64,000 nt of DNA from Deltaproteobacteria bacterium (lineage in GTDB: Bacteria > Desulfobacterota > Desulfuromonadia > Desulfuromonadales > Geopsychrobacteraceae), in assembly GCA_024280335.1 (NCBI GenBank), contig JAJRQI010000034.1, positions 1 to 64,000 of the forward strand, given 5' to 3'. Below the pieces are notes generated by a model. The model searched no databases. It was not told the origin of the DNA and saw only the letters and a program-made list of their open reading frames with translations. Shown here piece by piece: positions 13,846 through 30,951 of the stretch (position 1 is the first letter of the stretch; the number at the start of each line of letters is the position of its first letter). The translations under genes and the position numbers were made by a program.

Positions 13846-13870
13846 CCCTCACTCCATATGTTTCGTTTAA

Positions 13871-13906
13871 GAAAAAATGAGCTGCGCTTGCGCAACTCAT
13901 TTTTTG
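13871..13906. terminator. Bidirectional terminator / possible attenuator just upstream of ugd
   Basis: AAAAAATGAG pairs with ACTCATTTTTT around a TGCGC/GCGCA inner stem (13872-13906), giving a GC core flanked by A and T runs on both strands. It would end minus-strand transcription from the lipoprotein genes just before ugd. The rest of the gap, 13907-14172, shows no convincing gene. Confidence 0.8.
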
Positions 13907-14172
13907 CCGATATTGGCGAAACCTGCTCCCTGACCCCAGAGAGTGCCCATCTCATTACTCGGTTGCACCCTATCATAATCTGGTCAAAGAAAAAATACTG
14001 CATCTGCGGAATCAGAACATTCCACTTAATAGCAAATCAAATACCAGAGGATGAGAAAATACCGATGCGTCCCACCAGAAAAAACAAGCGAAGAAGAACT
14101 ACGGCAATTGATGTACGCCGACACGCTACTCGGGATAGTGGCCTTTTCAGACGTCAGAAATCAAGATAACGG

Positions 14173-15282
14173 TCAAACACTCCCGGCAGACCACGAATCG
14201 AGCAAAACTCCCATTTTCATTACCCCCCTACTGATACAATTGTCCATCGCATCAACAGCAGCTTTTTGTGAACTTGAACCGAACCCCATACTTGTGCCTG
14301 AAATCTTGTAGACGACCTGGTCGGATTCAGTTTCGATTAATTTAACCTGACAACCGGCATCGGCGCTGACAATGTTACCGAGACTGCTGTCTGTCTTCAA
14401 AAAACTCAACTCAACAGCAATACGATAGCGGGATTGTTTTCTGTCGTTCAGATCAGGAAGGAAAATTGTAAAATCATACAATTCATGAAGTTTTTCAAGA
14501 GGCTGAGAAAGAAACGGATAACTGGCCAGACTTGCATCCCGCATACGAACCTGGACGTTACCAATCTGATGCTGTTTAGAGGCATTGACGGTCAAACGAT
14601 TAATTTCCTGCTGGATATCTCTGCCACCGAAAGACGCCAATAAATGAGGATATTTGCTTGCCGGTATTCTACCGATAAAGGCTTTCGCTTCCAGCAGATA
14701 AGACAATGCTATTTGCTGCCTACCCTGGTTCCAATAATCCATACCCTGCTGATATTTTTTTCCGCCGCTGATGAAGAAAGTTTTTAATCGATTTTCATAA
14801 CGCTGACGCTCTCTCTTCAATTCCTTGCGCGGAAAACGTACCAGGACAAAAACATCGTAAAGACCGGTCCCGTCTCGATAGAAATTCTTCTCAAAGTAAA
14901 GTTCAAGCAGTCTTGCGCCGACCACGGTGCCGCTTGACTTGAAGGAAACCCGATCGATGATTCTGGTTTGCAGCTCATCGCGATCCTGGGCATAGTAGAC
15001 GATCCCTTCCTGGCCGAGAAATTCCAATATCTGGCGTACCGCTGCCTGCACAGCATCGTGCTCACCCGCCTCTAACCGTTCAACGCCGGTACGGATTCCA
15101 CGAAAATACAGGTATTCATTATCCGGCTTCGGCACCTGGCCGATCCAGCTTGGCCGTGCCGCTGCCGATCGCAGCGACTCAGGCAGTTTCAACTTGGGAT
15201 TGCACCCGCCGTTCAACAACATCAGCACCACAGAGCAGAGAATTAAGCGCAACACGGTGCTATTCCACAACCTCTTCCTCAT
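14173..15282 (-). CDS. Lipoprotein of unknown function, paralogue of its upstream neighbour
   Basis: A 369-residue protein with a lipoprotein signal (L-N-G-G-C at about residue 27). Residues 40-140 match the upstream lipoprotein in pattern: RPxWxxxVP, YFRGxxT, LExGxxDA, then RQxLE. The C-terminal part, about residues 170-365, is extra and includes a tetratrico-like helical stretch and a beta-rich end. No family is recognised. It overlaps the upstream gene by 23 bp, so the two form one operon. The shared fold and lipobox suggest partner envelope proteins. Confidence 0.75.
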   Translation of the reverse strand: MRKRLWNSTVLRLILCSVVLMLLNGGCNPKLKLPESLRSAAARPSWIGQVPKPDNEYLYFRGIRTGVERLEAGEHDAVQAAVRQILEFLGQEGIVYYAQDRDELQTRIIDRVSFKSSGTVVGARLLELYFEKNFYRDGTGLYDVFVLVRFPRKELKRERQRYENRLKTFFISGGKKYQQGMDYWNQGRQQIALSYLLEAKAFIGRIPASKYPHLLASFGGRDIQQEINRLTVNASKQHQIGNVQVRMRDASLASYPFLSQPLEKLHELYDFTIFLPDLNDRKQSRYRIAVELSFLKTDSSLGNIVSADAGCQVKLIETESDQVVYKISGTSMGFGSSSQKAAVDAMDNCISRGVMKMGVLLDSWSAGSV

Positions 15283-15883
15283 AAAAACGCTGATTCATCT
15301 CGTCCAGAAACTGTTCTGCTTTGACGTTGTTCTCCCTTCTTGCCTGCACCTTCATGGCGTCGATCGAACGATTCATCGCCACCCGGTAATCGGCTTCAGG
15401 AATACTCACCAACGAGAAAACATTGTAGTAATATTTTACGCCGCTGCCGGTGAACACCTCGATCTTCTCAAAGTGGCTTTCCTGCTCCTTGACGCCACGA
15501 ACCACGTTTTCAGCCAGAATTTTCAACCCATCCTCGATGATGCTGCCGATATCCTCATCCGTTTCCGGAATGCCGCGTTCCACCCGGACGCTGGAATAGT
15601 CCGCCCGCCCACGCTGTTCAATCATTTCCAAAACCTGGCGGGCAGCATTTTCACGCGCATCAGTCGCACCGCCCTCCAGGGTGACAGCTTTGGTTTTGAA
15701 ACCGCGGAAGAACATCTTGCCATCCTCGTCATCCGGCACATGAGTCAGCCAGTCCGGGCGGTCCGAACCAGTGGATTCGACAATTTTTTCATGTCCCTGC
15801 AGATATGGCTTGGAAGATGAGCAGGCGGCAAGAGTAATGACCAGAACAAAAAGCAGAAAAGCATTTGTATGAAGTACGCGCAT
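15260..15883 (-). CDS. Lipoprotein of unknown function, first of a paralogous pair
   Basis: A 207-residue protein with signal peptide and lipobox L-A-A-C at about residue 21. Its body (about residues 42-170) is the domain shared with the downstream lipoprotein and is followed by a charged helical tail ending in acidic residues. No family is recognised; the pattern recalls small LPP20-like outer-membrane lipoproteins, but that is weak. The promoter region holds the 16-bp element at 15967-15982, which it shares with the RHH-FHA and PP2C genes, so it may belong to the same regulon. Confidence 0.75.
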   Translation of the reverse strand: MRVLHTNAFLLFVLVITLAACSSSKPYLQGHEKIVESTGSDRPDWLTHVPDDEDGKMFFRGFKTKAVTLEGGATDARENAARQVLEMIEQRGRADYSSVRVERGIPETDEDIGSIIEDGLKILAENVVRGVKEQESHFEKIEVFTGSGVKYYYNVFSLVSIPEADYRVAMNRSIDAMKVQARRENNVKAEQFLDEMNQRFYEEEVVE

Positions 15884-15966
15884 AACGATCCCCTTTGTTG
15901 TTTATGCAAGGCTGATAACATGGAACTGTAAAAGATCCATTCAAATAGTATCATAGTCATCGTATA

Positions 15967-15982
15967 TAGCAACATAATACTA
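15967..15982 (-). promoter_or_regulatory. Copy 1 of the TAGTAWYATGTTGCTA element
   Basis: On the minus strand it reads TAGTATTATGTTGCTA, 84 bp upstream of the lipoprotein start. The last six bases, TTGCTA, could be a -35 box, with TACTAT 16 bp further on as a weak -10. It matches copies at 24810-24825 and 27751-27766 at 14 of 16 positions. Confidence 0.6.
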
Positions 15983-16044
15983 TATTTTCGGTAAAAAACG
16001 ATCGGCTACGGAATAAAATCCATTTTCCCGACGAATGCGGCCCT

Positions 16045-16072
16045 TTGTGGGAGGAACTCGAGACCGCGATGA
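16045..16072 (+). repeat. REP-like element, diverged copy
   Basis: TGTGGGAGGAACTCGAGACC followed by GCGATGA resembles the REP elements at 18055-18081, 18138-18166 and 26245-26272 (consensus GTGGGAGGGGCTT..CCGCGAT). It lies between the divergent lipoprotein and hipA units. Confidence 0.6.
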
Positions 16073-16083
16073 TTCCAGAACGC

Positions 16084-16113
16084 TTGACAAGGGACACCTC
16101 AAACCACTATAGT
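16084..16113 (+). promoter_or_regulatory. Sigma-70 promoter of the hipA-hipB pair with palindromic operator
   Basis: The -35 TTGACA (16084-16089) and -10 TATAGT (16108-16113) are 18 bp apart. The -10 lies in a perfect 10-bp palindrome, CACTATAGTG (16106-16115). A related inverted site, CACCA-N3-TGGTG (16197-16209), covers the hipA ribosome site. HipB-type proteins bind such palindromes, so autoregulation is likely. A 6-codon open frame (16131-16151) with AGGA upstream precedes a small CCAC/GTGG hairpin and T run, and may be a leader. Confidence 0.65.
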
Positions 16114-16213
16114 GACTTTCAGGAAAAGTCATGGATAACATTTGCAGTTAAAGAACCACTTAAGTGGCTTTTTTATTCATAAATGCAGCAGAAAAGCACC
16201 ACTATGGTGAACT

Positions 16214-17491
16214 ATGGTATGCCAAATTGAGATTTACCTGGATGGCCAATGGCAACTCGCCGCAACCTTCGAGCCTTATGCAGAGCATTTGGACCGAGGC
16301 CACGAAGGCCCTGCGCGCCTGCAGTATGATGTCGACTATGCCGTGCAAAACCAGGGGCGTCCCGAGGCTGAACTCATCCCCAGGTTGGAGGTCGGGTTTG
16401 AGCTCTACCTGTACAAGGATGGCTGGCCCCCCTTCCTCTTGGACCTTCTTCCCGGTGGAGCTGGTCGCCGGGCCTGGCTGAAGCGGTTAGAAATCCCGCA
16501 AGATGGACCTCACGCGGACTGGCATATGCTTACGAGGGGCGCAGGCTGTCCACCTGGTTGCCTGAGAATTGCCGAAGCTGTCCAGCAGCCGCCGCCAGGT
16601 CATTTCCGCCCCGGCTTTCCCAGGCACGACATCATCGAAAAGCACCAGGAATTTCTTGATTACGCCGAAGAACGTGGCGCCCACGTTGCCGGTGCGACGA
16701 GCGTCCAGGGTGAGGCTCCCAAATATCTCCTGATCGAAGATCTCAATGGGATGTTTCATGCCGAAGGAGCTCTGCCGGATGAAAAGGCAAAACAATTCTG
16801 GCTGGTAAAGTTTCATCGTGGCCACAGTGGGGTGAAACGAAATCATCTCGTCCTTGAGAATGAAGCGCCCTATTATCGGGTTGCAAAGGCCTTTGGTGTC
16901 AGAACCGGCGAACCGTTGATCTTCGATCGTGGGGCCTTGTTTGTGCCAAGATTTGACCGGTTGGCTCATGATGCTGTGGTTGAGCGCTATGGAATACACA
17001 GCCTCTACGCCATTGCCGGGGTTGGCGGGTTTGGCGCGACCGCGCGGCATGAAACCTTCTGCAAGGCCTTCGCCAGGGTTGTTGATGATCCGGCGACCGA
17101 ACTGCGAGAGTATATTTTGCGCGACATCCTGAATCTGGCCTTGCGCAACACAGACAATCATGGTCGCAATACGGCCATATTGCGCAAGCCCGGGAAGGTT
17201 GAGCTGGCACCGCTTTATGATTTTGCACCGATGTTTCTGGACCCGGAAGGCATTGGCCGCGTGACCCGGTGGGAACACGAGGTGCCTGGAGCACAGCCCG
17301 ACTGGGGGGCGGTCACGAAGACCTTGGGGGAGTGGCTCGATCAAAAAGCGATGGGGCTCTGGTTGCATGAGGTTGCAACGCAAGTTGAAGCTTTGCCGGC
17401 AACCATGACGGGTTGCAATGTTGCCGATGAAATCAGTGAAACACTCAAGCCGTGGATTCAGACCGTCGCAAGGGGCCTGCGTCGGGTCTAG
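16214..17491 (+). CDS. HipA-family toxin (Ser/Thr kinase fold)
   Basis: A 425-residue HipA-like kinase, the toxin type that phosphorylates a translation factor such as a glutamyl-tRNA synthetase. The phosphate-loop region GATSVQGEAPKYLL (about residue 158), the catalytic NTDNHGRN (about residue 312) and LAPLYDFAP metal-site motif are intact. The start at 16214 has only a weak GGTG upstream. The HTH partner follows 16 bp after the stop. The usual hip order is antitoxin first, so this layout is reversed. Neighbouring REP elements and the island setting suggest acquisition by transfer. Confidence 0.88.
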   Translation: MVCQIEIYLDGQWQLAATFEPYAEHLDRGHEGPARLQYDVDYAVQNQGRPEAELIPRLEVGFELYLYKDGWPPFLLDLLPGGAGRRAWLKRLEIPQDGPHADWHMLTRGAGCPPGCLRIAEAVQQPPPGHFRPGFPRHDIIEKHQEFLDYAEERGAHVAGATSVQGEAPKYLLIEDLNGMFHAEGALPDEKAKQFWLVKFHRGHSGVKRNHLVLENEAPYYRVAKAFGVRTGEPLIFDRGALFVPRFDRLAHDAVVERYGIHSLYAIAGVGGFGATARHETFCKAFARVVDDPATELREYILRDILNLALRNTDNHGRNTAILRKPGKVELAPLYDFAPMFLDPEGIGRVTRWEHEVPGAQPDWGAVTKTLGEWLDQKAMGLWLHEVATQVEALPATMTGCNVADEISETLKPWIQTVARGLRRV

Positions 17492-17507
17492 CTGCGAGGA
17501 GAAAACG

Positions 17508-17798
17508 ATGAAAAAGCTGCCACCTGCCGAGATGGCTGAACGAAAGGATGCACTTTACCGGGGGGTCGCCACAGGTGATCTGTCAATTCGTGATGCAACC
17601 CGTGAAATGCGTAAAATTCTCGGAATGACCCAGGCAGAATTTGCCAAAAAGGTTGTTAATATTTCTCCGCGGATCCTGTCTGAATTCGAACGTGGCTTAG
17701 GCAATCCGACGCTGGATACTTTAAACAATATCGCCAAGCCATTTGGGATGCAGGTGAGTTTTTTACCACCTGAAAACTGGCGTCTTGATAAAAAGTAA
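17508..17798 (+). CDS. HipB-like helix-turn-helix antitoxin
   Basis: A 96-residue protein with an N-terminal helical lead and a Cro/CI-type HTH domain (about residues 35-90), with REMRKILGMTQAEFAKKV, ISPRILSEFERG and NPTLDTLNNIAKPFGM. It should bind HipA and repress the pair at the palindromes described upstream. The ATG has GAGGAG nine bases before it. It lies downstream of its toxin, which puts antitoxin translation second in the message. Confidence 0.85.
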   Translation: MKKLPPAEMAERKDALYRGVATGDLSIRDATREMRKILGMTQAEFAKKVVNISPRILSEFERGLGNPTLDTLNNIAKPFGMQVSFLPPENWRLDKK

Positions 17799-17826
17799 GG
17801 CCGGAGGGGCTTTAGCTGGGCCATAA

Positions 17827-18035
17827 CAATGGAAATGATCCGGCATAAGCACAAATGCCAGACTATTGATCCGCGCTGCCTGCTGCTGAAACCGCTTGGC
17901 ACAGATACAGAGACGCGCGGCCTGAAAACTTTCGAAGACCGGGCGACGACCAATTGTGGTGGTGGTCAAAAGATAAATCTGACCAGGTTCTGAGACGCGG
18001 CCTTTGCGCAGTGATTTGCTATGCGGATTCTGCAT
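17827..18035 (-). pseudogene. Remnant of a REP-associated tyrosine transposase (RAYT / IS200-like)
   Basis: The N-terminal 69 codons of a Y1 transposase are recognisable: start MQNPHSKSLRKGR, then YLLTTTT, RRPVFESF and the HUH metal motif VLMPDHFH near residue 65. Homology stops right after this motif, so the catalytic tyrosine part is lost. RAYT enzymes mobilise REP sequences, and two REP copies lie directly beside the fragment. Confidence 0.75.
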
Positions 18036-18054
18036 CTGCTTACCCCCTCAGGTT

Positions 18055-18081
18055 AATCGCGGCTTAAAGCCCCTCCCACAG
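18055..18081 (-). repeat. REP element, minus-oriented
   Basis: The plus strand reads AATCGCGGCTTAAAGC followed by CCCTCCCACA, the reverse complement of the family consensus GTGGGAGGGGCTTTAAGCCGCGAT. It forms an inverted pair with the copy at 18138-18166, a typical BIME layout next to the RAYT remnant. Confidence 0.75.
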
Positions 18082-18137
18082 GGTCAAGAACTCTGCAACA
18101 AAAACAGCATGATGCCCGCTGTTGTGGATATCGCCCC

Positions 18138-18166
18138 TGGTGGGAGGGGCCTCCGGGCCGCGATGT
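18138..18166 (+). repeat. REP element, plus-oriented
   Basis: GGTGGGAGGGGCCTCCGGGC followed by CGCGATG matches the local REP family. The rest of the gap up to the template repeat (18167-18375) shows no gene. Confidence 0.75.
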
Positions 18167-18375
18167 GGTTGGTCTTATTACCACCCCGCTGTGGCTTAAT
18201 ATCTCAGTGTCAGTTCAGCAATCGAAGATTGTGATATTTCCAGAATCTCCCCCTCGCCACCTTCGAATGCGACATCCATCGTTCCTACCAGCCGCAAGGG
18301 GGTCCTGCTGTTTTCGCCCCAATGATCAGGGACGGGATAACGCCCGGTTCACCGCCGGAATCCACCATGCGGTGA

Positions 18376-18507
18376 GCTGATGACACAAGCCGGAACCCCA
18401 GATTGTCGTTGCGGTTAGCGGCCCCGTTCCTGTTGCGATTGGCCGCCCGCACGTTGGTCGGGTTGTTGTTCCAGCTGCCGCCGCGAATGACGCGGTTGGA
18501 GCCTGCC
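18376..18507 (-). other. DGR template repeat (TR)
   Basis: This 132-bp sequence begins 7 bp after the reverse transcriptase stop codon and matches 20137-20268 at the end of the kinase gene (position plus 1761). In 18382-18507 there are 14 mismatches, all at T on the plus strand, that is at A of the coding strand (9 to G, 3 to T, 2 to C), and none among the 98 other positions. Its conceptual translation is the end of an FGE domain in which the hot codons are AAC or AAT for Asn. A further T/A difference at 18381 lies in the segment that would serve as the IMH-type boundary. Confidence 0.95.
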
Positions 18508-18513
18508 TGGGCG

Positions 18514-19509
18514 TCACCCTATACTGCCTATAATGCTGCGCCTGAAACTTTTTGCATCTGCTGTTTGGGTGAATGCAACCAATGGTGTCACTCGCCGAGC
18601 CAGTTCCCGATCGTCACAGAGCTCAGCAGAATAATCTCGTTGGGCGGCACGGAATCCGGCAACAAAGCGGCTGCGACTGCGCGGACTCAGTCGAATCTTC
18701 TGCGGATACATCCGAAAGCCGAGCAGCGGCACACCCCGCTCGCAACGGTTCAGTTGCACGTTGTTTTTCAGCTCCAGAGATAGCTCGGTCCGTAGAAATG
18801 TCACGATCTGCTGCAACAGTTTTTTCAGTGAGTCCTTGTCCTCGCAGAACAGGGCAAAATCGTCCATGTAACGCAGATAGCCTTTGACGCCAAGATCATT
18901 TTTAAGAAAATGGTCCAGGGCGCCAAGGTAAAAGTTGGCCAGATGTTGTGACAGCAGGTTGCCGATCGGCAAGCCTTTGCCCGGCGCGGCAGAATAGCTG
19001 TCGATGCACCGGTCAAACAGGTTCAGCAAACGACAATCCTTGAACCGCCGCGTCAGCAGTTTGCGCAGAGCAGCGTGGTCGATGCTGTCAAAATATTTAC
19101 GGATGTCTAGCTTCAGGTACCAGCCGTACTTACGGCTGAACCGCTGTGCTCGTTCCAATGCGGCATGCTGCCCCTTGCCGCGACGGCAGGCATAACTGTC
19201 AAAGATGGCGTAACGTTCCAGGTGCGGTTCAACAACATTCATCACGGCATGATGCAACACCCGTTCAGAAAAAGCAGCGGCACAAATGGTGCGCTCTTTG
19301 GGATCGTATACCTTGAAGAAACGATAATCACCAATTTGAACCTGTTCGGCCAGTAAATCACGGTGCAGTCGGGCCAGGTTATTACTCAAATCCGCCCGGT
19401 AGTGAATTACTTCCGAACGATCCCGCTTGCCGCGCGAAGCTTTCAAGAAGGCGCGGCGCAGGTTGTCCGGTTCGGAAATCTGCTCATACAGATGATTAAT
19501 CCGCTTCAT
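18514..19509 (-). CDS. DGR reverse transcriptase
   Basis: This 331-residue enzyme copies TR RNA into error-prone cDNA for retrohoming into the target gene. Motifs in order are: WYLKLDIRKYFDSIDH (first catalytic Asp, about residue 130), LPIGNLLSQHLANFYL (about residue 178) and YLRYMDDFALF (catalytic YMDD, about residue 212), then the thumb. The I-G-x-x-x-S-Q form of motif 4, in place of Q-G-x-x-x-S-P, is the signature of DGR enzymes and is linked to adenine infidelity. There is no maturase or retron-type extension. Its start overlaps the HRDC gene end by 14 bp, and the TR follows 7 bp after its stop. Confidence 0.95.
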   Translation of the reverse strand: MKRINHLYEQISEPDNLRRAFLKASRGKRDRSEVIHYRADLSNNLARLHRDLLAEQVQIGDYRFFKVYDPKERTICAAAFSERVLHHAVMNVVEPHLERYAIFDSYACRRGKGQHAALERAQRFSRKYGWYLKLDIRKYFDSIDHAALRKLLTRRFKDCRLLNLFDRCIDSYSAAPGKGLPIGNLLSQHLANFYLGALDHFLKNDLGVKGYLRYMDDFALFCEDKDSLKKLLQQIVTFLRTELSLELKNNVQLNRCERGVPLLGFRMYPQKIRLSPRSRSRFVAGFRAAQRDYSAELCDDRELARRVTPLVAFTQTADAKSFRRSIIGSIG

Positions 19510-19966
19510 TCACCGGCGTCTCCAGCTGCAACAGATCAAGAATCTGTTGACCGTATTTCTCCAGTCGTCCGGCACCAATGCCGGAGATCTCGCCCAAAGC
19601 CGCAAGAGAGGAGCAACGTCGCCTTGCAATCTCGGCCATCTGCTCATTGGTCAAAATTGTGTAAACCGGCACTGCTTCAGCGTCCCCGGTCTGTTTTCGC
19701 CAGTCGCGCAGGCGAGCATAAACAGCAAAATCACCCGGCTCCAGAACTTCTTTGTAGTCGATCTTTTCCCTACGGCGCGGATTGGTCTTTTCGAGCGGCG
19801 GTTCACCGAACAGATACTCAACCGCAACCGCCCAGAAGGAACTTTCTCCCTGAGTGACAAATTCGCGGTGCACCGCCAGTATGCGTGGTCCGCGTAAAAA
19901 CCGGTTTAACTCGGCTTCGGCCTCGCTGCTGTTATTGACCGATATGCGAAAAAACTTGTACTGCAT
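19496..19966 (-). CDS. HRDC domain protein, DGR accessory
   Basis: A 156-residue protein. The C-terminal HRDC domain (about residues 75-150) contains VYARLRDWRKQTGDAEAVPVY, TNEQMAEIARRR and LGEISGIGAGRLEKYGQQIL. The N-terminal half, starting MQYKFFRISV, is an uncharacterised region seen beside RT genes. HRDC folds bind nucleic acid, and such genes stand in for the accessory factor Avd in some DGRs; I see no Avd-like four-helix protein here. The ATG at 19966 has GGGAGGG just upstream; an open frame reaching 20068 covers a dispersed repeat and is rejected. The gene lies between target and RT. Confidence 0.85.
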   Translation of the reverse strand: MQYKFFRISVNNSSEAEAELNRFLRGPRILAVHREFVTQGESSFWAVAVEYLFGEPPLEKTNPRRREKIDYKEVLEPGDFAVYARLRDWRKQTGDAEAVPVYTILTNEQMAEIARRRCSSLAALGEISGIGAGRLEKYGQQILDLLQLETPVNEAD

Positions 19967-19978
19967 CACCCTCCCCCA

Positions 19979-20002
19979 GCCCCTCCCGTCAAAGGGAGGG
20001 GA
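19979..20002. repeat. Palindromic CCCTCCC/GGGAGGG repeat upstream of the HRDC gene
   Basis: CCCTCCC (19981-19987) pairs with GGGAGGG (19994-20000). It is of the same general kind as the repeats at 1-275 and 45847-45867 and supplies part of the HRDC ribosome site region. Confidence 0.6.
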
Positions 20003-20129
20003 GTTAAATTCATCACCATGCACCGCTACGCGGTGAACACCATGAAAAAAACAAGCTCCGGGACACATCCAGCATTGTTACGGGCGGCTCCGCCTTGCCC
20101 TCCACTATGCTTCCTGTCGCCCCTACGCC

Positions 20130-22475
20130 CTACTCTGCTGAAGACACAAGCCGGAACCCCAGATCGTCGTTGCGGTTAGCGGCCCCGCCCCAGCCGCGAA
20201 GGGCCGCCCGCACGAGGGTCGGGTTGCTGCTCCAGCCGCCGCCGCGAATGACGCGGTTGGAGCCCGCCGTCAAGGGCCCCTGCGGATTACTGCGGGGGCT
20301 TTGACTGTAATAGCTGCTGTCAAACCGGTCGTTGGTCCACTCCCAGACATTACCGAGCATATCGTATAGCCCAAAAGGATTGGGTCGGTAACGACCCACT
20401 GGTGCCGGATAAAAATAGCCATCATTACATTCAGACTTTACTGAAAATACGCTTCCATCAGGCCACTTTGTTTGGTCCGCAACATTGGCATACTTACAAG
20501 CCTGATCCGGATCATCCCCCCAGAAGCGGATTGTCTCCGTCCCGCCGCGCGCAGCGTATTCCCATTCAGCCTCGGTGGCAAATCGATATTTCTTACCACT
20601 TTGTTTGGTCAACCAGTCGATATACCTTCTGCTATCGTTCCAACTGACGCAGACCACCGGTTGGTTGTTCTGTTGTGAAAAACCGGGAGAATTCCAAGCT
20701 GTTCCTGCACGCCAGTCCCATTTGCCACTATCTACATCCAAGACTCTACAGCCCTCTACATTACCTGTATTTTTTTCGGCATCTGTACGGTAGCCGGTGT
20801 CATTCACAAACTGGCGAAACTGCCCGACGGTCACTTCGAGCCTGCCGACATACAGATCATCCACACAAACCTCATGGCGTGGCAATTCGCGCTCAAAATA
20901 TTTTTTGTACTTTTCTTCGCCGGTTTCTTGAATCAAATAACGCTTCTCAGCAGCAGTCTGTCCCATCTGAAAACAACCGCCCTTGACCAGAACAAACTGC
21001 ATACCGCTGCTCGGGTCGGTGAAAGCTTCTTGCTTTATTGCAACTTCGTGCTTTATTGCGGATTCTGGCTTTATTGCAGCATTTTCCCTAGCCGTTTCCA
21101 GCTCTGTTTTCAGCGTATAAAGCCCATACACAGTTGGATACACCTGTTCAGCTTTCTGGAGATAGCCCTGCGCTTTGGCAAATTGACCTGCAGTTACTTT
21201 TTGCCGGGCAAGCTCCAGGTACTTTTCCGCTACGCGCCGAACCCCTTTGCGGGCTTCGGCATTGGCCGGATCAAGCGATTGTGCCTGGCGAAATTTCTCC
21301 AGGGCATTGTTGCCGGCGGGATTCATCAGGCGAAGATTCTGCAGGTCTTGTTCTGCGGCGAGCAATAATTGCGTTATCTGCTGGCTTTTTATCGCGGCGG
21401 GATCAGGGGAGGGTTTCGGCGGCGGCGGGACTTCAACCTTAGTGACAACTTGACGGGCCACTGCTTGCGGCGGAATATTTGCCGCGCCGCCGGCGATAAC
21501 CCTGGGCGGGTCTTGACGGGTCAACAGAAACAAACCACCCCCCACAATAACCGCCAACAACGCGCCGCCAAGCGCCCATTTAAGCCCACTGCCTTGCTTT
21601 TGCGCGGCGGGGACCGGCATAACCCGGGTCTTGGCTGCCGCTTTCGGCCGTTCGGCCTGCGGCAAATCTGCTCCGGACAATAATTGATCGATGGCTGAGG
21701 TCAATTCTGCGGCATTGCTATAGCGATCTTGCGGATTCTTTGCCAACAGTCGCTCAAGCAACGGTTGTAATTTACCCAGATGGGAAGGAAGTCCTGGAAC
21801 CGCCGCCTGAACATGCTGCATCGCCACGCCGATGGTGTTATCGGCGTCGAAAGGAACAGAACCGGTGAGCATCTCGTACAACACCACACCCAACGCATAA
21901 AGATCGCTGCGACCATCCAGGTCGGTAAGCCCCTGGGCCTGTTCGGGACTCATGTAGTGCGGTGTACCGATGCTCATGCCGGTACCGGTCAGCCCAGTGC
22001 CGCTGCCGACCGCCTTGGCAATGCCGAAATCGGTAATAATCGGCTTGCCGTGATCATCAAAGAGGATATTTTCGGGCTTCAAATCTCGATGCACAAAGCC
22101 TTTGAGGTGTGCATGGCCGAGCGCCTCGGCAATCTGTCGCAGCCATTGAAGGGACTGTTGCGGGGAAAGACCGGCCTTGATCTTCTGCTTCAGATCGCCG
22201 CCGTTCAGCAGCGACATGGTATAGAAGTGGTATTCGCCCTGATGCCCTACTTCGTAGATGGTGACGATACCAGGATGCTGCAACGAAGCGCAGTGCAGCA
22301 CCTCTTTCTCAAACCGCAGCGCCAGATCGGTATTGCGCGCCAACGACGGCGGCAACAGTTTGAGTGCGACTTTGCGCTGCAAGGTGGTATCTTCGGCCAG
22401 GTAGACATCGGCCATCCCCCCGGCACCGAGCTTACCCACTATCTGAAATTTTCCCAGCCTGTATCCTGCCTCCAT
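20130..22475 (-). CDS. Membrane Ser/Thr protein kinase with C-terminal FGE/C-type lectin domain; DGR target
   Basis: A 781-residue receptor-like kinase. Kinase domain, about residues 5-270: glycine loop KLGAGGMADVY, Lys39 in VALKLL, HRDLKPEN at 129-136, DFG at 149-151, MSPEQ. One membrane helix follows at about 299-318, then a Pro-rich linker and TPR-like helices (360-450). An FGE-sulfatase-type C-type lectin domain fills 490-781 (YRFATEAEWEYAARGG, DMLGNVWEW, RVIRGGGW, LGFRLV). The kinase should be cytosolic and the FGE domain outside. The last 44 residues are the DGR variable region, with template-divergent residues 747, 749, 750, 754, 759, 761, 762, 763 and 771. The ATG has GGAGGCAAGG upstream. 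Confidence 0.93.
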   Translation of the reverse strand: MEAGYRLGKFQIVGKLGAGGMADVYLAEDTTLQRKVALKLLPPSLARNTDLALRFEKEVLHCASLQHPGIVTIYEVGHQGEYHFYTMSLLNGGDLKQKIKAGLSPQQSLQWLRQIAEALGHAHLKGFVHRDLKPENILFDDHGKPIITDFGIAKAVGSGTGLTGTGMSIGTPHYMSPEQAQGLTDLDGRSDLYALGVVLYEMLTGSVPFDADNTIGVAMQHVQAAVPGLPSHLGKLQPLLERLLAKNPQDRYSNAAELTSAIDQLLSGADLPQAERPKAAAKTRVMPVPAAQKQGSGLKWALGGALLAVIVGGGLFLLTRQDPPRVIAGGAANIPPQAVARQVVTKVEVPPPPKPSPDPAAIKSQQITQLLLAAEQDLQNLRLMNPAGNNALEKFRQAQSLDPANAEARKGVRRVAEKYLELARQKVTAGQFAKAQGYLQKAEQVYPTVYGLYTLKTELETARENAAIKPESAIKHEVAIKQEAFTDPSSGMQFVLVKGGCFQMGQTAAEKRYLIQETGEEKYKKYFERELPRHEVCVDDLYVGRLEVTVGQFRQFVNDTGYRTDAEKNTGNVEGCRVLDVDSGKWDWRAGTAWNSPGFSQQNNQPVVCVSWNDSRRYIDWLTKQSGKKYRFATEAEWEYAARGGTETIRFWGDDPDQACKYANVADQTKWPDGSVFSVKSECNDGYFYPAPVGRYRPNPFGLYDMLGNVWEWTNDRFDSSYYSQSPRSNPQGPLTAGSNRVIRGGGWSSNPTLVRAALRGWGGAANRNDDLGFRLVSSAE
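20137..20268 (-). other. DGR variable region (VR) in the kinase gene
   Basis: The 132-bp copy of the TR at 18376-18507 ends 5 bp before the stop codon triplet. It encodes residues about 737-780. Nine amino acids differ from the template: Ser to Gly, Asn to Ser (two), Asn to Leu (two), Asn to Gly (two), Arg to Trp and Asn to Asp. A GC-rich inverted sequence at 20082-20100 (GGCG/CGCC inside GGGC/GCCC), about 40 bp beyond the VR, is a candidate for the hairpin that many DGR targets carry. Confidence 0.95.
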
Positions 22476-22617
22476 CCTTGCCTCCGGCGATAAATCAACT
22501 TCAATCTAAGATAAAAACCTAGTAACTTCAGCACATTCTGTGGCACGGCGTAGACAGGAACCCTTGATAAGATACTGCTATCCGCTTTCGGTCATTGTCT
22601 CGAACTTCAAGCCCCCT

Positions 22618-22716
22618 GGACACGGATAACATCTGATTTCCACGGATCAAGCTGAAACCATAAGATTGCTCATCGTTTTGAATCTAAATCCGTGTCATTC
22701 GTGTAAATCCGTGTCC
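22618..22716. repeat. Palindromic intergenic repeat with GGACACGGAT ends
   Basis: GGACACGGAT (22618-22627) and ATCCGTGTCC (22707-22716) are inverted ends. Inside lie CACGGAT and ATCCGTGTCATTCGTGTAAA, the widespread 'ACACGGATTTACACGAAT' type of repeat. It occupies the gap 22476-22785, which has no gene and no evident terminator. Confidence 0.65.
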
Positions 22717-22785
22717 CATTGCCCTTGACCGCAAAGTCTCATCGAGAGAGTGCCGAAAACGGAATATACTGAATAATTACAAAAC

Positions 22786-23934
22786 TTACTCAGTAGTGTC
22801 CGGCTCATTCTTAAGAATTTCTTCCACGGAAACTGTGCTTGATCCTTGGTTATTCCCTATTTGCGGCAAAGACTCCGCTATGGGTTCTTCATTGACCGGT
22901 ACCTGCCGGCTCACTTCATCCACAGTGGCCGTCAGTTCGGGTTGTGATGTTTCGGTTATCTTCTGTGTTGCCAACTGGGTTTTTTCATCCTCTGTTTTCC
23001 TGACTTGAACTGCAGGAACTGTTGCGGGTGAGATTGTCCCGCCACCGCCGGATACTTTTGGTTCCGGCGGTGCAGAACCGAAAAAGAAGAATCCAACAAT
23101 CACGAACAGAGCCAGAACGGCCACCCAGATCCACGGCAACGCTCTGCGTTGTTTTTTTGCAATAGCCTGATTCAGTGCGGCGGCATTAAAAGGGACGGTT
23201 CCGCCTCTGGGTACGAACGCCCCTGCACCTTGCGGAGCATCGATCAGAATGACCGTGATGTTGTCTGAGCCGCCGTTGTCATTGGCGGCAGTAATCAAAC
23301 CTTGAACCCGCTGCTGCAGATCCGGCGCAGAACTCAGTAGATTTGCTATCTGGATATCCTCGACTTCACTGGTCAGCCCGTCGCTGCACAAAAGGATCGA
23401 TTCACCCTTTAGCAGAGTTCCACCGAGAGTATCAACCTGAACGCTACGATCACCGACACCGAGGGCCTGGGTGATTACGCTGCGTTGCGGGTGGACACGA
23501 GCTTCTTCTTCGGTCAAGGCTCCGGCATCGATCATCTGCTGGACAAATGAATGATCGCTGGTCAATTGCCGTAAAGCTGAACCGTTCCACAAGTAAGCAC
23601 GGCTATCACCGACCCAGGCGACCTGATAATTACAGCCGGAAAGTTTTAAAGCGACTGCGGTGCAGCCCATTCCCGGAGAACCTTTACCGGCATTTCCCGC
23701 ATCAATAATTGCCCGGTGAGCTCGTTCCAAAGCGGAAGAAAGTTTGCTGCCGGATTTGATCAGTTCGGGAATAACCGCCACCGCAATGGCACTAGCGACC
23801 TCACCAGCTTCATGTCCCCCCATACCATCTGCAACAACCCATAATCCTTGGTCTGCACAGACCGCAAGGTTGTCTTCGTTATGATCGCGCTCTCGCCCGA
23901 CATCGGTGCCGTAAGCACAGGCCGCTGTTTTCAA
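22786..23934 (-). CDS. PP2C-family Ser/Thr protein phosphatase with membrane anchor
   Basis: A 382-residue PPM/PP2C phosphatase. Metal and catalytic motifs: RDHNEDN near residue 16, VADGMGGHEAGE near residue 34, VGDSRAYLW near residue 107, LLCSDGLT near residue 182 and NGGSDNITVI near residue 222. A single membrane helix at about residues 265-284 is followed by a roughly 95-residue Pro/Thr/Glu-rich tail. The start is TTG with GGAGG five bases before it. It precedes the diversified kinase and should remove phosphate from the kinase or its targets; this pairing is the normal arrangement for bacterial STK systems. Confidence 0.92.
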   Translation of the reverse strand: MKTAACAYGTDVGRERDHNEDNLAVCADQGLWVVADGMGGHEAGEVASAIAVAVIPELIKSGSKLSSALERAHRAIIDAGNAGKGSPGMGCTAVALKLSGCNYQVAWVGDSRAYLWNGSALRQLTSDHSFVQQMIDAGALTEEEARVHPQRSVITQALGVGDRSVQVDTLGGTLLKGESILLCSDGLTSEVEDIQIANLLSSAPDLQQRVQGLITAANDNGGSDNITVILIDAPQGAGAFVPRGGTVPFNAAALNQAIAKKQRRALPWIWVAVLALFVIVGFFFFGSAPPEPKVSGGGGTISPATVPAVQVRKTEDEKTQLATQKITETSQPELTATVDEVSRQVPVNEEPIAESLPQIGNNQGSSTVSVEEILKNEPDTTE

Positions 23935-23936
23935 AA

Positions 23937-24227
23937 CTACCTCCGCACTTCTTTAAAATCAGGAACAAACGGTCCAAAGATCAAAATAGTCATGGCTGGA
24001 ATAAAGGCTGAAACGGGTTGGAATGATAGTGTCGGTAAATTTTTTTTGAAAAAAATCAGAAAGGATGATGCTGGAAAACAGTAAGAAAAGCCGTGGTCAC
24101 GGGGGAAAATCGGACGTGACAGAACGATGGGATGGAGCGGCCCCCTCCCTCTAAAATTTAGTCGCTTGCAGATACTGCTCAGATGACAACGGTGGAAACC
24201 GCTGAGAATCTGCATCGTCAGTGGCAT
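23937..24227 (-). CDS. Doubtful small ORF between the RHH-FHA and PP2C genes
   Basis: A 96-codon frame with a very strong ribosome site (AAGGAGGG six bases before ATG). Its stop codon overlaps the ribosome site of the PP2C gene and ends 2 bp before the PP2C TTG, as in coupled genes. The product is rich in Pro, Phe, Ile and Arg, has little acidic content and matches nothing I know. It may be a real leader or coupling peptide, or only an untranslated leader. An inverted pair, GCAGAT..CTCAG with CTGAG..ATCTGC (24169-24214), lies near its start. Confidence 0.3.
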   Translation of the reverse strand: MPLTMQILSGFHRCHLSSICKRLNFRGRGPLHPIVLSRPIFPRDHGFSYCFPASSFLIFFKKNLPTLSFQPVSAFIPAMTILIFGPFVPDFKEVRR

Positions 24228-24259
24228 GACGATCCCTCCTTAAAAAAAAATAATATACC

Positions 24260-24778
24260 CTAACTTCCTAGATAACTCACCTCCGTATCGCCGATCCTGA
24301 CGATTTTCCCCGCCTCCAGCTTCACAGCTGTGTTTTTTTGCCCTTTATGCCAAAGTCCATTTTTACTTTCCAGGTCTATCCCCCACCAGAAGTCTCCATC
24401 GTAACTAAGCATCAGGTGCTTGCGCGAAACCTCGCGATCATCGACAACGATGTCACAAGAGCCATGTCGACCGACGAAGAGCCGAACACCCCGCGCGCCG
24501 ATCTCGCGGCTGCTGATGGGACTTTTTAACCGCCACCAGGAAGCCAGTTTTTCACCACGCCCCCGAAAAGCTTCATCAACCAACTGCCGCAAAAGGGTTT
24601 CACGCACCGCCGCAGAACGGTTCGGGACATCATGAATGCCGCTCAGCAGACGACGAATATAATCCTGCCACGGCAGATTATTCAGTTCGGCCCGGCGATC
24701 AACTTCTTCCCAGAAAGCGGACTCCATGGAAACTGAAGTCACCTTGCCGTCGATAATGATGCTGCGTTTGCTTATCAT
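24260..24778 (-). CDS. Ribbon-helix-helix / FHA fusion, putative phospho-responsive DNA-binding regulator
   Basis: A 172-residue protein. Residues 1-60 match the RHH_4-type ribbon-helix-helix pattern (KRSIIIDGKVTSVSMESAFWEEVDRR, then a second helix). Residues about 90-172 are an FHA domain with RLFVGRHGSCDIVVDD, the phosphopeptide-binding SRKH and DLESKNGLW. FHA domains bind phosphothreonine, which fits the adjacent kinases; RHH proteins bind short operators as dimers. Its promoter contains the 16-bp element at 24810-24825, so autoregulation is plausible. It is the first gene of the run FHA-PP2C-kinase-HRDC-RT. DNA binding is inferred, not shown. Confidence 0.85.
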   Translation of the reverse strand: MISKRSIIIDGKVTSVSMESAFWEEVDRRAELNNLPWQDYIRRLLSGIHDVPNRSAAVRETLLRQLVDEAFRGRGEKLASWWRLKSPISSREIGARGVRLFVGRHGSCDIVVDDREVSRKHLMLSYDGDFWWGIDLESKNGLWHKGQKNTAVKLEAGKIVRIGDTEVSYLGS

Positions 24779-24787
24779 GATGATCAG

Positions 24788-24825
24788 TTATAACAGTGCA
24801 ATCGACAGATAGCAACATGTTACTA
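24788..24825 (-). promoter_or_regulatory. Copy 2 of the TAGTAWYATGTTGCTA element, in the RHH-FHA promoter
   Basis: The minus strand reads TAGTAACATGTTGCTA (24810-24825), nearly a perfect palindrome around AACATGTT. Its end TTGCTA is spaced 17 bp from TATAAC (24788-24793), a good -35/-10 pair. Transcription would begin only a few bases before the ATG at 24778, so the message may be nearly leaderless. Confidence 0.65.
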
Positions 24826-24832
24826 TGTTTCT

Positions 24833-26226
24833 TTAATTGTCGGACAATTTCAGGTTACGTATCATCATTTCACCACCACGCCCGGCGTCATTCTGTATTG
24901 ATGCATATATCCGGATCGTTTTCACCTTGTTAAAGTCGATACCAGGCACATTGTCTGCGTTGAAATAAACGGTCTCCCAGCCAAAGGTTTTGTGAAAATA
25001 GCGTTTTGCTGCATAACTGTCCAAAGGCAGCTTTCCTCTAAAATAATCGTGCGTATGCCCTTTATATGCGGTATCAATTGCGCCGACCTTACCGACGGCC
25101 TGACCGTTTTGGTCCTTGAAAATAAACCAGACATGATTCATTCCATAGCGGGAAGCCTTATACGGCACCTTCCAGTCAAACGAAAAAGTGTTGAATTCCC
25201 CCGGCTCGATGTCAATTTCTTTCTCTACAGTGACATAATAATTGCCGCCATTGCGAGCTTCAAGCCGGATAAATTCAGTACCGCTGCTGTCTGTGCCGGC
25301 AGACAATCCCTTTGTGTACCTGCCGTGCCCGGCCATATAGACACCGGTACTTTTCCAGCCGTTGAGGTTCAAATCAATGACCTTTTCACCACGCCGGCCT
25401 GTCTGCAGCACCGCAGCAGACGTAATCGGCCTCTGCGCTTCCCTGGACAACCGTGCGGCAGTCTGCCACATCCAGTAGCTGTAGATGGTTTTAAGCGATG
25501 CTTCGTTGGTTTTGATATTCAGTACCGAAAGGGTTGCGGTCTCGCCCGCCTGGAAGAGAATATCTTGTAAAAGTTTTGCGGCCAGCAATTTGCTCATGGC
25601 CTTGCCGACACCTTTATCGATATATTTTTCAACCAAACGCGGGGCGATTTCAGTGATGGCGGTATCGACAAAAACCTCGACCAGTTCCTCGGGATCGTAA
25701 GAAGCCTTCAGCTCGCGACGTCTGGCATTGTAGAGTTTGCGCCAGACCCGGTACGCCTGCTCATATTCAGCGGCCATGATTCGCATTTTTGCTTGACGCC
25801 CATCGGCCCGACGCACCTTTTGCCAGTCGATCGCCACTGCGTCTTCAAGCACTTCGGGAGCCACGAAATCAACTTGAAAGTTAGCGCTGATCTTCTGTTT
25901 GCCGCCGAAAGGGTCACGTCCCTCGACCGTCAGCCGGTAGTTCCCCTCCACAACGAAACCGCTGAAGACGACCCGTTTTTCCAGCCCCCAGTCCGTCCAT
26001 TTATTGATCGCGTGTCTGACGCCGTATTTCCAATCACCGGGGTATCAAGTTTGTAACGCAGCTCGGCAAATGGACCGGCCATGGTCCAGGAGAAGACGAC
26101 GGAATCCGCCACATTAACCCGCTTCGGGGCCGTTGCGGTGAAGTCCAGACCTAAATCGGTGGCCGTGACTTTGCCAGGCAAAAAAACTGCCGAGATAAAT
26201 AGAATCGCACAGACTGCTAAACGCAT
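24833..26226 (-). pseudogene. Exported protein of unknown function, interrupted by a frameshift
   Basis: The first part (from ATG 26226, with GGAGGG nine bases upstream) has a signal peptide MRLAVCAILFISAVFLPG and continues as a beta-rich domain to ...YKLDTP. Near the C run at 26039-26042 the frame must shift by one base to continue as GDWKYGVRHAINKWTDWGLE and on to the long second part ending at 24833. The two parts together give about 464 residues. The C-terminal 180 residues look like a jelly-roll type domain with many aromatic residues. No family is recognised. A real loss of one C, a sequencing error or slippage would all fit. Confidence 0.65.
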
Positions 26227-26244
26227 TATCTTCCCTCCCTGCAA

Positions 26245-26272
26245 CTGGGAGCGGCTTTGAAGCCGCGATGAT
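26245..26272 (+). repeat. REP-like element
   Basis: CTGGGAGCGGCTTTGAAGCC followed by GCGATGA fits the local REP family, with an 8-bp GCGGCTT/AAGCCGC stem. It lies upstream of the frameshifted exported protein gene. Confidence 0.65.
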
Positions 26273-26379
26273 TTATCGTGATCAAACCGAGCCGGTAAAA
26301 AAAGCTGGTCAGTGTGTTCTGCCCAATCTACTTGCCTGTAGGATGGACCAGCCGAAAACCTTGGTGGTAGTAACGATGA

Positions 26380-26760
26380 TCAGAAATATAAATAATCTGG
26401 CGGATCAGCACTGATCTGCTGTTCCCGCAATATCAGCCCGTCAGACGGGTCCTGACCATAACCTGGCCGGGGCGGCAGACTGTCCCTGACATCTTTTACA
26501 ATTTCACCAGTGTGCTCTTTGTGTCTGGCGGCGTAGACAGCGGCACCGCTACCGACATCACCGGCCATGCCGCCCACATGCCTGCGGTGTTCATTGGCAT
26601 AACCGGCCACGCCGTGCCCGGTATCGACCAGGGGTCCTGTTTGTCGGCCACCAGCCAACCGGAAGACCGCTTTTTGCGACCATCAACCGAGCCCATCTTT
26701 GTCCGCCGCCTCGCCGAAGATCGCGCCATGATGCTTAGTTCCGTAGGTTGGGTAGAGTAA
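26380..26760 (-). pseudogene. Degenerate ORF, unknown function
   Basis: One minus frame reads from about 26760 to 26380 with charged, protein-like composition (for example GAIFGEAADKDGLG, then QKAVFRLAGGRQTG, HVGGMAGDVGSGAAVYAARH and ending DPPDYLYF), but is cut by one in-frame TGA near 26700. The 92 codons after a TTG at 26658 remain open. No family is recognised. It could be a decayed gene or chance; the stop after GLG argues for decay. Confidence 0.35.
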
Positions 26761-26780
26761 AACGAAACTCAACATTTTCC

Positions 26781-27659
26781 TTACAACCCGACAAACCAGT
26801 ACAGTCCGCCAACCAGCAGCGCCAGAGCGACCCCCAGCCCCCCCCACTTCAGCCATTTTTCGAGTGGATCGGGTGGGAGCAACGGAATAAAGGAGACAAC
26901 CTGATAGTGCTGCTTGACTTGCCCGGCAGCGGGTTCAGCCGGGACCGGGGTTGGTGGAGCAGCCACCAGGACCACGCTGATATTGTCGGACCCGCCGTGC
27001 TTGTTTGCGGCACGGATCAGTCTGCCGACCGTTTCTGTTTCGTTGCCGGGCCAGCGCAAAACACCGGCAATATCACGATCGTTAAGCTCACCACTGAGGC
27101 CGTCGCTGCAGAGCAGAATTTTCTGGCCGGGTTCGAGTCGGCCGCTGACAACATCAACCTGGAGGGTCTTTTTGTTGCTGTGGCCGAGAGCCTGGGTGAG
27201 GACACTGTTCTGGGGGTGGTTGCGCGCCTGCTGTTCATCAATAGCGCCGGAATCGAGCAATTGCTGGACAAATGAGTGGTCACGGGTCAGTTGACTAAGA
27301 TTGGTGCCATCCCAGAGATAGGCGCGGCTGTCACCGACCCAGGCGATGCGGTAGTCAGCGCCGTCGAATTGCAGAGCGACCACCGTGCAGCCCATACCGG
27401 CACAGCTCTCTTTAGCCTGGGCGGCAGCAAGCACCCTGTTGTGTGCCGCTTCAATTGCCGCGACAAGGGCAACGCCGCGCCGCACCTGAACCGAAATGGA
27501 TTCTATGGCCAGGGTACTGGCGACCTCACCGGCAGCGTGACCGCCCATGCCGTCAGCAACAATATAGAGACCGCATCCAGGAATCACCCCGCAGGCGTCC
27601 TCATTATGATCGCGGATGCGGCCGACATCGGTGGCATGAGCAAATGAAATGGCTGTCAA
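26781..27659 (-). CDS. PP2C-family Ser/Thr protein phosphatase with C-terminal membrane helix
   Basis: A 292-residue PPM phosphatase, close to the one at 22786-23934. Motifs: RDHNEDACG, VADGMGGHAAGE, VGDSRAYLW, LLCSDGLSGE and GGSDNISVV. A tail-anchor-like helix (WGGLGVALALLVGGLYWFVG) ends the protein, so the catalytic domain should be cytosolic. The start is TTG, as in its paralogue. Its upstream region has copy 3 of the 16-bp element. It probably serves the same kinase network. Confidence 0.92.
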   Translation of the reverse strand: MTAISFAHATDVGRIRDHNEDACGVIPGCGLYIVADGMGGHAAGEVASTLAIESISVQVRRGVALVAAIEAAHNRVLAAAQAKESCAGMGCTVVALQFDGADYRIAWVGDSRAYLWDGTNLSQLTRDHSFVQQLLDSGAIDEQQARNHPQNSVLTQALGHSNKKTLQVDVVSGRLEPGQKILLCSDGLSGELNDRDIAGVLRWPGNETETVGRLIRAANKHGGSDNISVVLVAAPPTPVPAEPAAGQVKQHYQVVSFIPLLPPDPLEKWLKWGGLGVALALLVGGLYWFVGL

Positions 27660-27750
27660 AGCTGCGCTCCCTGTGTCTAATAATCCAGGATCACGAAACG
27701 GGTGGTACTGATGTCCCTGAGATTATCTTACACTTAACTCCGAACCACCA

Positions 27751-27766
27751 TAGCAACATATTACTA
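27751..27766 (-). promoter_or_regulatory. Copy 3 of the TAGTAWYATGTTGCTA element, upstream of PP2C
   Basis: The minus strand reads TAGTAATATGTTGCTA, 92 bp before the TTG start. TTGCTA with TGTAAG 18 bp later is a possible promoter. It has the same orientation to its gene as copies 1 and 2. Confidence 0.6.
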
Positions 27767-27816
27767 AATCGCAAACACAACATTTCAAAAGCGGGGTTGA
27801 CAATGCGCTTGAACAA

Positions 27817-27844
27817 ACGGCCCCGGAAACCATTCTGGGGCCGT
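27817..27844. terminator. GC-rich hairpin, possible terminator
   Basis: The perfect stem ACGGCCCC/GGGGCCGT has a 12-nt loop. On the minus strand it is followed by UUUGUUC, only a moderate U tract, so this may be a weak terminator of the Cys-rich protein transcript. Confidence 0.45.
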
Positions 27845-27883
27845 CATCCATAAACCCACCGTTCAGCTCAATCCTTCCGGAAA

Positions 27884-27925
27884 GTGTAACCCATGTTCCC
27901 GGTTTAAACTGTTACCTATGTTCCG
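27884..27925. repeat. Short direct repeats, possible insertion-sequence end remnant
   Basis: GTAACCCATGTTCCCGG (27886-27902) and GTTACCTATGTTCCG (27911-27925) repeat the same GTWACCYATGTTCC core. Such sequences resemble ends of some DDE transposase elements, but no transposase is visible nearby. The rest of the gap 27660-28028 has no gene. Confidence 0.3.
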
Positions 27926-28028
27926 ATTGCACTCATAGCGAAGGATTGGTACTGATCGGTTAAACACGCAACTGTCCTTGGAAGTGCCGCTGCTTCCAGG
28001 AACAGTATTTTCGCAAACGAGCAGATTC

Positions 28029-28895: not shown

Positions 28896-28974
28896 TACTA
28901 CCTCCTCGGCATAATCTAGATAGTGCCTGTTAAATAAATTCCGTCATCCGAGCTTCATTTAAAAAGCGTGTCAA

Positions 28975-30795: not shown

Positions 30796-30906
30796 CCGCT
30801 TCTCCGTAAACCTGATCTCTTCAGAGTTATTTTTCCACATTTCATCTTGAACGAAGAATTAGGCCCCGAATAAGTTTAGCTCTTGATTGCATAAAGTGGC
30901 ACAACG

Positions 30907-30951
30907 CAAAAAAGGCCTGCCAGCCGGACCAGTGTCCACCAACAGACCTTT
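30907..30951 (-). terminator. Probable terminator of the tRNA-Arg transcript
   Basis: On the minus strand AAGGTCTG pairs with CAGGCCTT (one G-U), with a long loop, then UUUU. The rest of 30952-31453 has no gene that I can support. Confidence 0.5.

Follow-up and report, generated by a model that had tools for sequence, protein, structure and literature searches.

The locus described here raises the question of which host protein a cellular retroelement varies, and what such variation would serve. We analysed the window, a stretch of 64,000 nucleotides (nt) at the start of contig JAJRQI010000034.1 (assembly GCA_024280335.1) from a deltaproteobacterium of the family Geopsychrobacteraceae. It holds a complete diversity-generating retroelement (DGR) of the HRDC type. 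The answer that we favour, at a probability of roughly 0.8, is that this DGR varies the ligand-binding end of STK1, a membrane receptor kinase, and that this end is probably extracytoplasmic. Judged from its sequence, the bacterium is probably able to make many variants of its own sensor.

The retroelement and its parts

The initial annotation had proposed a complete DGR in the order target, HRDC gene, reverse transcriptase (RT) and template repeat (TR), and every part was found in its place, all on the minus strand (Table 1). The TR has the length of 132 nt and the position behind the RT gene that had been given, with a gap of 6 bases after the stop codon and not 7. Its near-copy, the variable repeat (VR), does lie at the 3' end of the gene two places upstream, with 89% identity over 132 nt. 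The adenine-specific variation ascribed to the pair was also seen: 15 of 15 mismatches fell on the 30 adenines of the TR, and 0 on the 102 other positions. With mismatches placed at random, this pattern has a hypergeometric P of 7.2e-12, which rules out a chance repeat. The changes from TR to VR were A to G (9), A to T (4) and A to C (2); they altered 11 codons, 9 of them non-synonymously. Mutagenesis at adenines cannot turn any TR codon into a stop codon, and about 6.6e15 proteins are possible. The identity of all non-adenine positions points to little drift since the last homing and suggests that homing was recent.

An IGxxxSQ-like motif is a mark of DGR-type RTs, and IGNLLSQ was read in the translation, in agreement with the motif 4 reported in the initial annotation. 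In a direct comparison, the RT was 33% identical to that of the Bordetella phage BPP-1 over 327 amino acids (aa). Its best solved relative was the 328-residue RT of 8ub7 (E 8e-42), which we take to be the BPP-1 RT. The accessory gene probably starts at the ATG at 19966, giving a predicted protein of 156 aa. Of 81 loci, made up of one from the family and the 80 best of 320 confirmed RT relatives, 75 had an HRDC homologue in the DNA retrieved, so this part is ordinary. HRDC is also already known as a DGR accessory from passages of PMC3240598 and PMC4891356. With an adenine-only TR/VR pair, a DGR-type RT, a target of the lectin/formylglycine-generating enzyme (FGE) fold carrying a 3' VR, and an accessory gene, the locus qualifies as a complete DGR, the element 3' of the VR apart.

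Table 1. Features of the DGR locus and its surroundings, in window coordinates.
Feature	Position	Strand	Description or basis
TR	18376-18507	-	132 nt, 30 adenines (codon positions 1/2/3: 15/12/3)
VR	20137-20268	-	132 nt, encodes the C-terminal end of STK1
DGR reverse transcriptase	18514-19509	-	331 aa, IGNLLSQ, YMDD; RVT_1 E 6.5e-20
HRDC accessory gene	19496-20068	-	overlaps RT start by 14 nt; Pfam HRDC E 1.6e-17
STK1 target gene	20130-22475	-	781 aa; Ser/Thr kinase, one predicted membrane helix, FGE/C-type-lectin domain
STK1 protein kinase domain	21711-22445	-	residues 11-255; Pfam
STK1 predicted membrane helix	21516-21584	-	about residues 298-320; hydropathy
STK1 FGE-sulfatase/C-type lectin domain	20145-20999	-	residues 493-777; Pfam E 7e-55, PDB sequences
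TR copy of a 22-nt TR/VR-identical stretch (IMH*-like)	18382-18403	-	between the last two variable sites
VR copy of the 22-nt invariant stretch (IMH-like)	20143-20164	-
Hairpin directly 3' of the TR	18349-18375	-	UCACCGC ... GCGGUGA, inner GG-UGGAUU-CC
17.6-kb insert	13846-31453	.	UDP-glucose dehydrogenase gene to tRNA-Arg(CCT); genus-mate comparison
Two probable lipoprotein genes	14173-15282, 15260-15883	-	lipobox by eye, no Pfam family
HipA-like gene and HTH gene	16214-17798	+	overlapping frames, opposite strand to the DGR; Pfam
PP2C Ser/Thr phosphatase (Stp1-type)	22786-23934	-	Pfam
FHA protein	24260-24778	-	N-terminal RHH_4 domain; sole FHA match in own genome
Second PP2C phosphatase	26781-27659	-
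STK2	28975-30840	-	621 aa; kinase-helix-FGE paralogue of STK1, without VR match

A DNA search of the window's own genome (3.6 Mb in 72 contigs, 99.5% complete) gave these two copies, the only TR/VR pair found there, and no third at E up to 0.001. A piece of another RT, 28% identical, lies at a contig end of the same genome (G000:C42:30297-30734). A phage-borne DGR was considered and rejected. Pfam matched no phage structural, terminase or integrase family among 20 window proteins, up to 32 kb, and RT identity was at most 44% among the phage records listed (40 of 170 matched) compared with 60% and 57% for the best genome contigs. Of the 277 genomes of the class, 18 matched the RT with an E value of 1e-30 or lower.

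The TR/VR pairs of the relatives were called by a script of ours that required at least 75%, and later 80%, of the mismatches to be at A. As their adenine share is partly selected by this filter, it was not used as evidence. One relative, L052:3320-6973 (Candidatus Methylumidiphilus alinenensis), has three VR-like copies for one TR in a single open frame. Another, L084 (G040, same family, another genus), carries a distant RT (38%) and, next to it, a TR/VR-like pair in which 13 of 13 differences are at A, a count that is A-filtered.

The target protein STK1

The C-type-lectin fold that the initial annotation had expected of the target was borne out by Pfam, by PDB sequences and by a predicted structure. 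The kinase, the membrane helix and the phospho-signalling neighbours go beyond what it had named. All active-site motifs are present in the kinase domain (GAGGMADV in the glycine loop, VALK, HRDLKPEN, DFG and SPE), and by these motifs it is a Hanks-type Ser/Thr kinase. With the predicted helix placed between the two domains, the kinase likely lies inside the membrane and the lectin domain outside.

The lectin model gave a mean predicted local distance difference test (pLDDT) score of 70.3 and a predicted template-modelling (pTM) score of 0.77. Its TM values were 0.66/0.68 to the FGE 6muj and 0.59/0.63 to the Treponema denticola variable protein 2y3c. The final lectin alignment leaves out the L011 row. 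The catalytic Cys of FGE sits in the C-terminal part of the enzyme. No cysteine was found in the last 60 residues of STK1; its lectin domain is therefore probably not an enzyme, and STK1 was rejected as a catalytic FGE.

From the DGR family as a whole, a TR RNA would be transcribed from the DNA that follows the RT gene, and the RT together with the HRDC protein would copy it with errors opposite adenines. The resulting complementary DNA (cDNA) would replace the VR. The varied FGE/C-type-lectin domain would then stand outside the membrane, joined by one helix to the Hanks-type Ser/Thr kinase inside, and ligand binding would switch the kinase. Gene content suggests that the neighbouring PP2C phosphatases could reset the kinase and that the FHA protein could read the phosphorylated product.

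The lectin domain might instead pick substrates or partners of the kinase rather than sense outside ligands. This alternative was proposed for cyanobacterial kinase-lectin targets, which are mostly predicted to be cytosolic according to passages of PMC7517822. For STK1 we consider it very unlikely, because a hydrophobic helix parts kinase from lectin here, and with such a helix in between the VR should not face the cytoplasm. The same division is seen in STK2, in the relatives L007, L057 and L079, and in an STK2-like gene of Geothermobacter hydrogeniphilus HR-1 (described below), and a hydrophobic helix also follows the kinase in the STK1-like fragment of that strain.

Flanks and recognition elements of the repeats

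The hairpin directly 3' of the TR may belong to the TR RNA that the RT complex binds. It was common to 12 loci, and 6 of its 8 pairs were changed on both sides in at least one sequence; these 12 sequences were picked by eye for similar flanks, and pairing was assessed without a shuffle control. Single-strand DNA folding 3' of the VR and 3' of the TR was no better than in shuffles (z 0.07 for the 106 nt from the VR end onward). Nothing in Rfam matched 17800-22600 at E up to 0.1, and promoter and terminator scans gave sites not clearly above shuffles (5 vs 3.7 and 7 vs 7.5, respectively). The term IMH, applied in Table 1 to the invariant stretch, is used in passages of PMC3240598.

Many TR/VR pairs showed inverted 3' flanks, in which the VR flank resembles the reverse complement of the TR flank. 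A first flank test covered 54 rows. The stricter test used 60-nt flanks and dinucleotide-preserving shuffles on 47 rows, with one VR per locus and including the window, BPP-1 and two Geothermobacter VRs. Both were run without L018, L022, L025, L026, L032, L041, L055, L064, L073 and L076 (frames, edges, wrong pairs) and without minus-strand duplicates; the script pair of L004 was left out, and its true VRs were entered by hand as two rows. Under the stricter test, 22 of 47 pairs had the inverted flank at p 0.05 and 19 of 47 at p 0.01. Controls gave 7 and 1 of 47 for the direct orientation, and 2 and 1 of 47 for inverted 5' flanks. The 22 pairs are mostly Bacteroidota loci, and BPP-1 (L195) passes too (p 0.01). 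Examples are L029, L033, L035, L036, L039, L040, L053, L054, L058, L074 and L078, among others. If RNA 3' of the TR primes the cDNA, the resulting RNA-cDNA chimera could possibly be colinear with one strand of an inverted-flank target; priming of BPP-1 cDNA from the spacer is described in passages of PMC12875486. The inverted-flank relation itself was not met in the passages of PMC3240598 and PMC12875486, which is no proof of its being unpublished.

The window VR had no 3' match to the inverted TR flank (p 0.82 in the first test and 0.73 in the stricter one). This result would fit a DGR whose parts are complete but whose target has become frozen: STK1 would be a former target, the 3' recognition element of the VR would have decayed, and homing would be inefficient. 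The importance of this side is known from BPP-1, where removal of the stem-loop 3' of the VR strongly reduced homing (passages of PMC3240598 and PMC12875486). The Geothermobacter VRs also did better in the first test (p 0.017 and 0.033), though the stricter test gave 0.04 and 0.23, about equal to their direct orientation (0.04 and 0.12). We nevertheless regard a frozen target as unlikely. TR and VR show little drift since the last homing, and the RT frame, the HRDC frame and the TR-flank hairpin are intact. Among the nearest relatives, 11 of the 12 tested loci within L005-L020 failed the stricter test as well, so the window is no exception. About 95 nt downstream of the VR, at roughly 20018-20042 on the minus strand, lies a weak candidate for the element, GTTCACCGC..GCGGTG (p 0.06).

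Gene neighbourhood, related systems and meaning

Comparison with genus mates indicates that the whole cluster is a lineage-specific insert at tRNA-Arg. Orthologues of the neighbouring gene apt, 91-94% identical, were found in 7 of 9 genus mates. In 6 of these 7, apt and the UDP-glucose dehydrogenase gene are no more than about 0.3 kb apart, with tRNA-Arg between them in 5 of 5 scanned, and the seventh mate (G029) has tRNA-Arg and apt without the insert, the dehydrogenase gene not being found there. The insert is thus missing in 7 of 7 informative mates, and the window carries 17.6 kb of additional DNA beside the tRNA gene. Its GC content (0.524 vs 0.508 and 0.530) does not stand out. No integrase was found by Pfam among the 13 insert proteins scanned. 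A search for attachment (att) repeats between the tRNA-Arg region and 13701-18400 gave none that was convincing, the longest exact match being 13 nt. An 11-nt sequence, AAAAAATGAGC, occurs near both insert ends and was not counted as evidence. All 9 genus mates have matches to the target among their other kinases and FGE-like proteins; of the kinases, the closest reaches 42% identity. Within the window's own genome, the insert holds 2 of 3 Pkinase matches (E up to 1e-10), 2 of 4 PP2C matches and the single FHA domain match.

A matching gene set was found in Geothermobacter hydrogeniphilus HR-1, which belongs to the same order, Desulfuromonadales, and to another family. Its DGR is spread over NZ_PPFX01000059.1 and two other contigs; the same contig came up for genome G095 and for the genome of L004. 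One contig carries an STK1-like kinase (72% identity, cut by the contig end), PP2C (50%), FHA (62%), an STK2-like gene, HRDC (56%), RT (57%) and a TR identical to the window TR at 107 of 132 nt. No VR was found in front of its HRDC gene. Two VRs lie in FGE domains on the other contigs; TR adenines account for 17 of 18 differences in one and for 20 of 22 in the other. A fourth match, weak and 35 nt long, was seen on yet another contig. Relatives of the window lipoproteins (70% and 36%) adjoin one of the VR genes. As the N-termini of the VR genes run off the contig ends, their fusion to a kinase is likely only. All 4 Pkinase matches of HR-1 (E up to 1e-10) are on contigs with RT/TR or VR2, all 6 FHA domain matches (three open frames) are on the RT/TR and VR2 contigs, and the single PP2C match is DGR-linked.

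Similar architectures were seen among the other RT relatives, either as a kinase joined through a helix to a VR-bearing lectin domain or as a kinase gene next to the gene of a VR-bearing lectin, in some cases with PP2C. L007, L057 and L079 have the fused form. In L062, L066 and L081, a kinase gene lies at most 0.35 kb upstream of the VR gene; the kinase of L066 has no helix, and PP2C is present in L066 and L081. These observations led us to a wider reading, which we hold only tentatively and at somewhat less than even odds. The DGR and a phospho-signalling cassette (STK1, the undiversified STK2, PP2C erasers and an FHA reader) may belong together, most Hanks-type signalling of the cell may pass through the rewritten receptor, and the architecture may have arisen or spread in Desulfuromonadia, Desulfobacteraceae and Bacteroidota.

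The kinases, phosphatases and FHA gene could also be chance neighbours of the DGR within a lineage-specific insert, which has other kinds of genes as well (HipA-like, HTH). Counts among the RT relatives, given below, agree with that. We rate it as highly improbable, since another family of the order keeps a matching set close to an RT of 57% identity, and since the window genome and Geothermobacter together have 7 Pkinase matches, 6 of which are DGR-linked.

Several observations weigh against the receptor-kinase reading or its extension to a cassette. Kinase similarity was found in 9 of 81 loci scanned, one of them weak, and these counts stand without a background rate. PP2C similarity was found in 2 of the 80 RT-relative loci, and FHA, lipoprotein and HipA/HipB (HipA/HTH) similarity in 0 of 80, many of these loci being short contigs. 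Besides the own genome, a near full-length RT of more than 50% identity was present in 1 of 277 class genomes (G095, 57%); the G245 RT is a piece only (63% over residues 3-162) adjoining an HRDC gene. The STK1 helix comes from hydropathy alone, with a peak of 2.17 at residues 301-319. Most of the VR is of low confidence in the lectin model (pLDDT about 47-54), and its last ten residues reach 83. The window VR also lacks the inverted 3' flank, a feature of many relatives.

What the receptor would sense bears on a further alternative, in which STK1 is a phage or competitor sensor of a conflict system and the DGR provides a repertoire in advance, in the manner of the putative Thiohalocapsa antigen sensors. 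Such a role was proposed for other DGR targets in passages of Dore et al. 2024 (PMC10907252). In its favour, the lineage-specific insert includes HipA-like and HTH genes, and the kinase scores against PADLOC kinase models. These PADLOC matches, however, look like general Ser/Thr kinase similarity, and the 13 insert proteins scanned gave no Pfam match to NACHT, TIR or caspase domains, although the HipA-like protein could be an effector. STK1 may just as well sense other ligands. We regard a conflict sensor as possible, with the balance clearly tilted against it.

The receptor-kinase reading sets the window apart from known DGRs in several respects. The prototype BPP-1 shares the RT, the TR/VR pair, the 3' VR in the target and an accessory gene. 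It differs in its order (mtd-avd-TR-brt, with Avd) from the target-HRDC-RT-TR order of the window, and its target is a phage tail protein, whereas the window DGR is chromosomal and targets a receptor kinase. In the Treponema denticola DGRs the HRDC gene likewise overlaps the RT gene, and variable protein 1 (2y3c) has an FGE-type fold. There, however, TR and RT are separated by the accessory gene, and the targets carry lipoprotein signal peptides; passages of PMC4891356, from which the gene arrangement and targets are taken, make no mention of kinases for these targets.

The closest likeness in the target is to cyanobacterial variable proteins described in 2020, in which a Ser/Thr kinase is followed by a C-terminal DGR-diversified lectin domain, and for which a ligand-controlled kinase was also proposed (passages of PMC7517822). 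Those proteins are mostly predicted to be cytosolic, in contrast to STK1 with its predicted helix between kinase and lectin. The window target also has PP2C, FHA and a second receptor kinase beside it, and the words PP2C and FHA are absent from the main text of PMC7517822. The Thiohalocapsa PB-PSB1 DGRs (passages of PMC10907252) are likewise cellular with lectin-fold targets, and transmembrane and Pkinase domains are among their target domains. They are centred on NACHT/STAND and MoxR-type systems, none of which occurred in the 13 scanned insert proteins of the window. HR-1 has the same DGR type as the window and differs in having its two VRs on other contigs and one PP2C match near the DGR instead of two. 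The word kinase is absent from the main text of a 2021 survey (PMC8144416). PMC7159879, which came up in a literature search on DGRs with phosphatase and FHA domains, describes other systems, and a DGR in Geobacter lovleyi is listed in the DiGReF table (passages of PMC3521204).

The role of cellular DGRs is largely open. Here the target has a readable output (kinase activity, a phosphorylated FHA partner) and the cluster is shared with a named strain, HR-1, which makes the role of a DGR testable, with signalling measurable as a function of VR sequence. If the reading of STK1 as a diversified receptor kinase is true, the locus would be a bacterial parallel to receptor repertoires in which the binding part varies and the signalling part is fixed.

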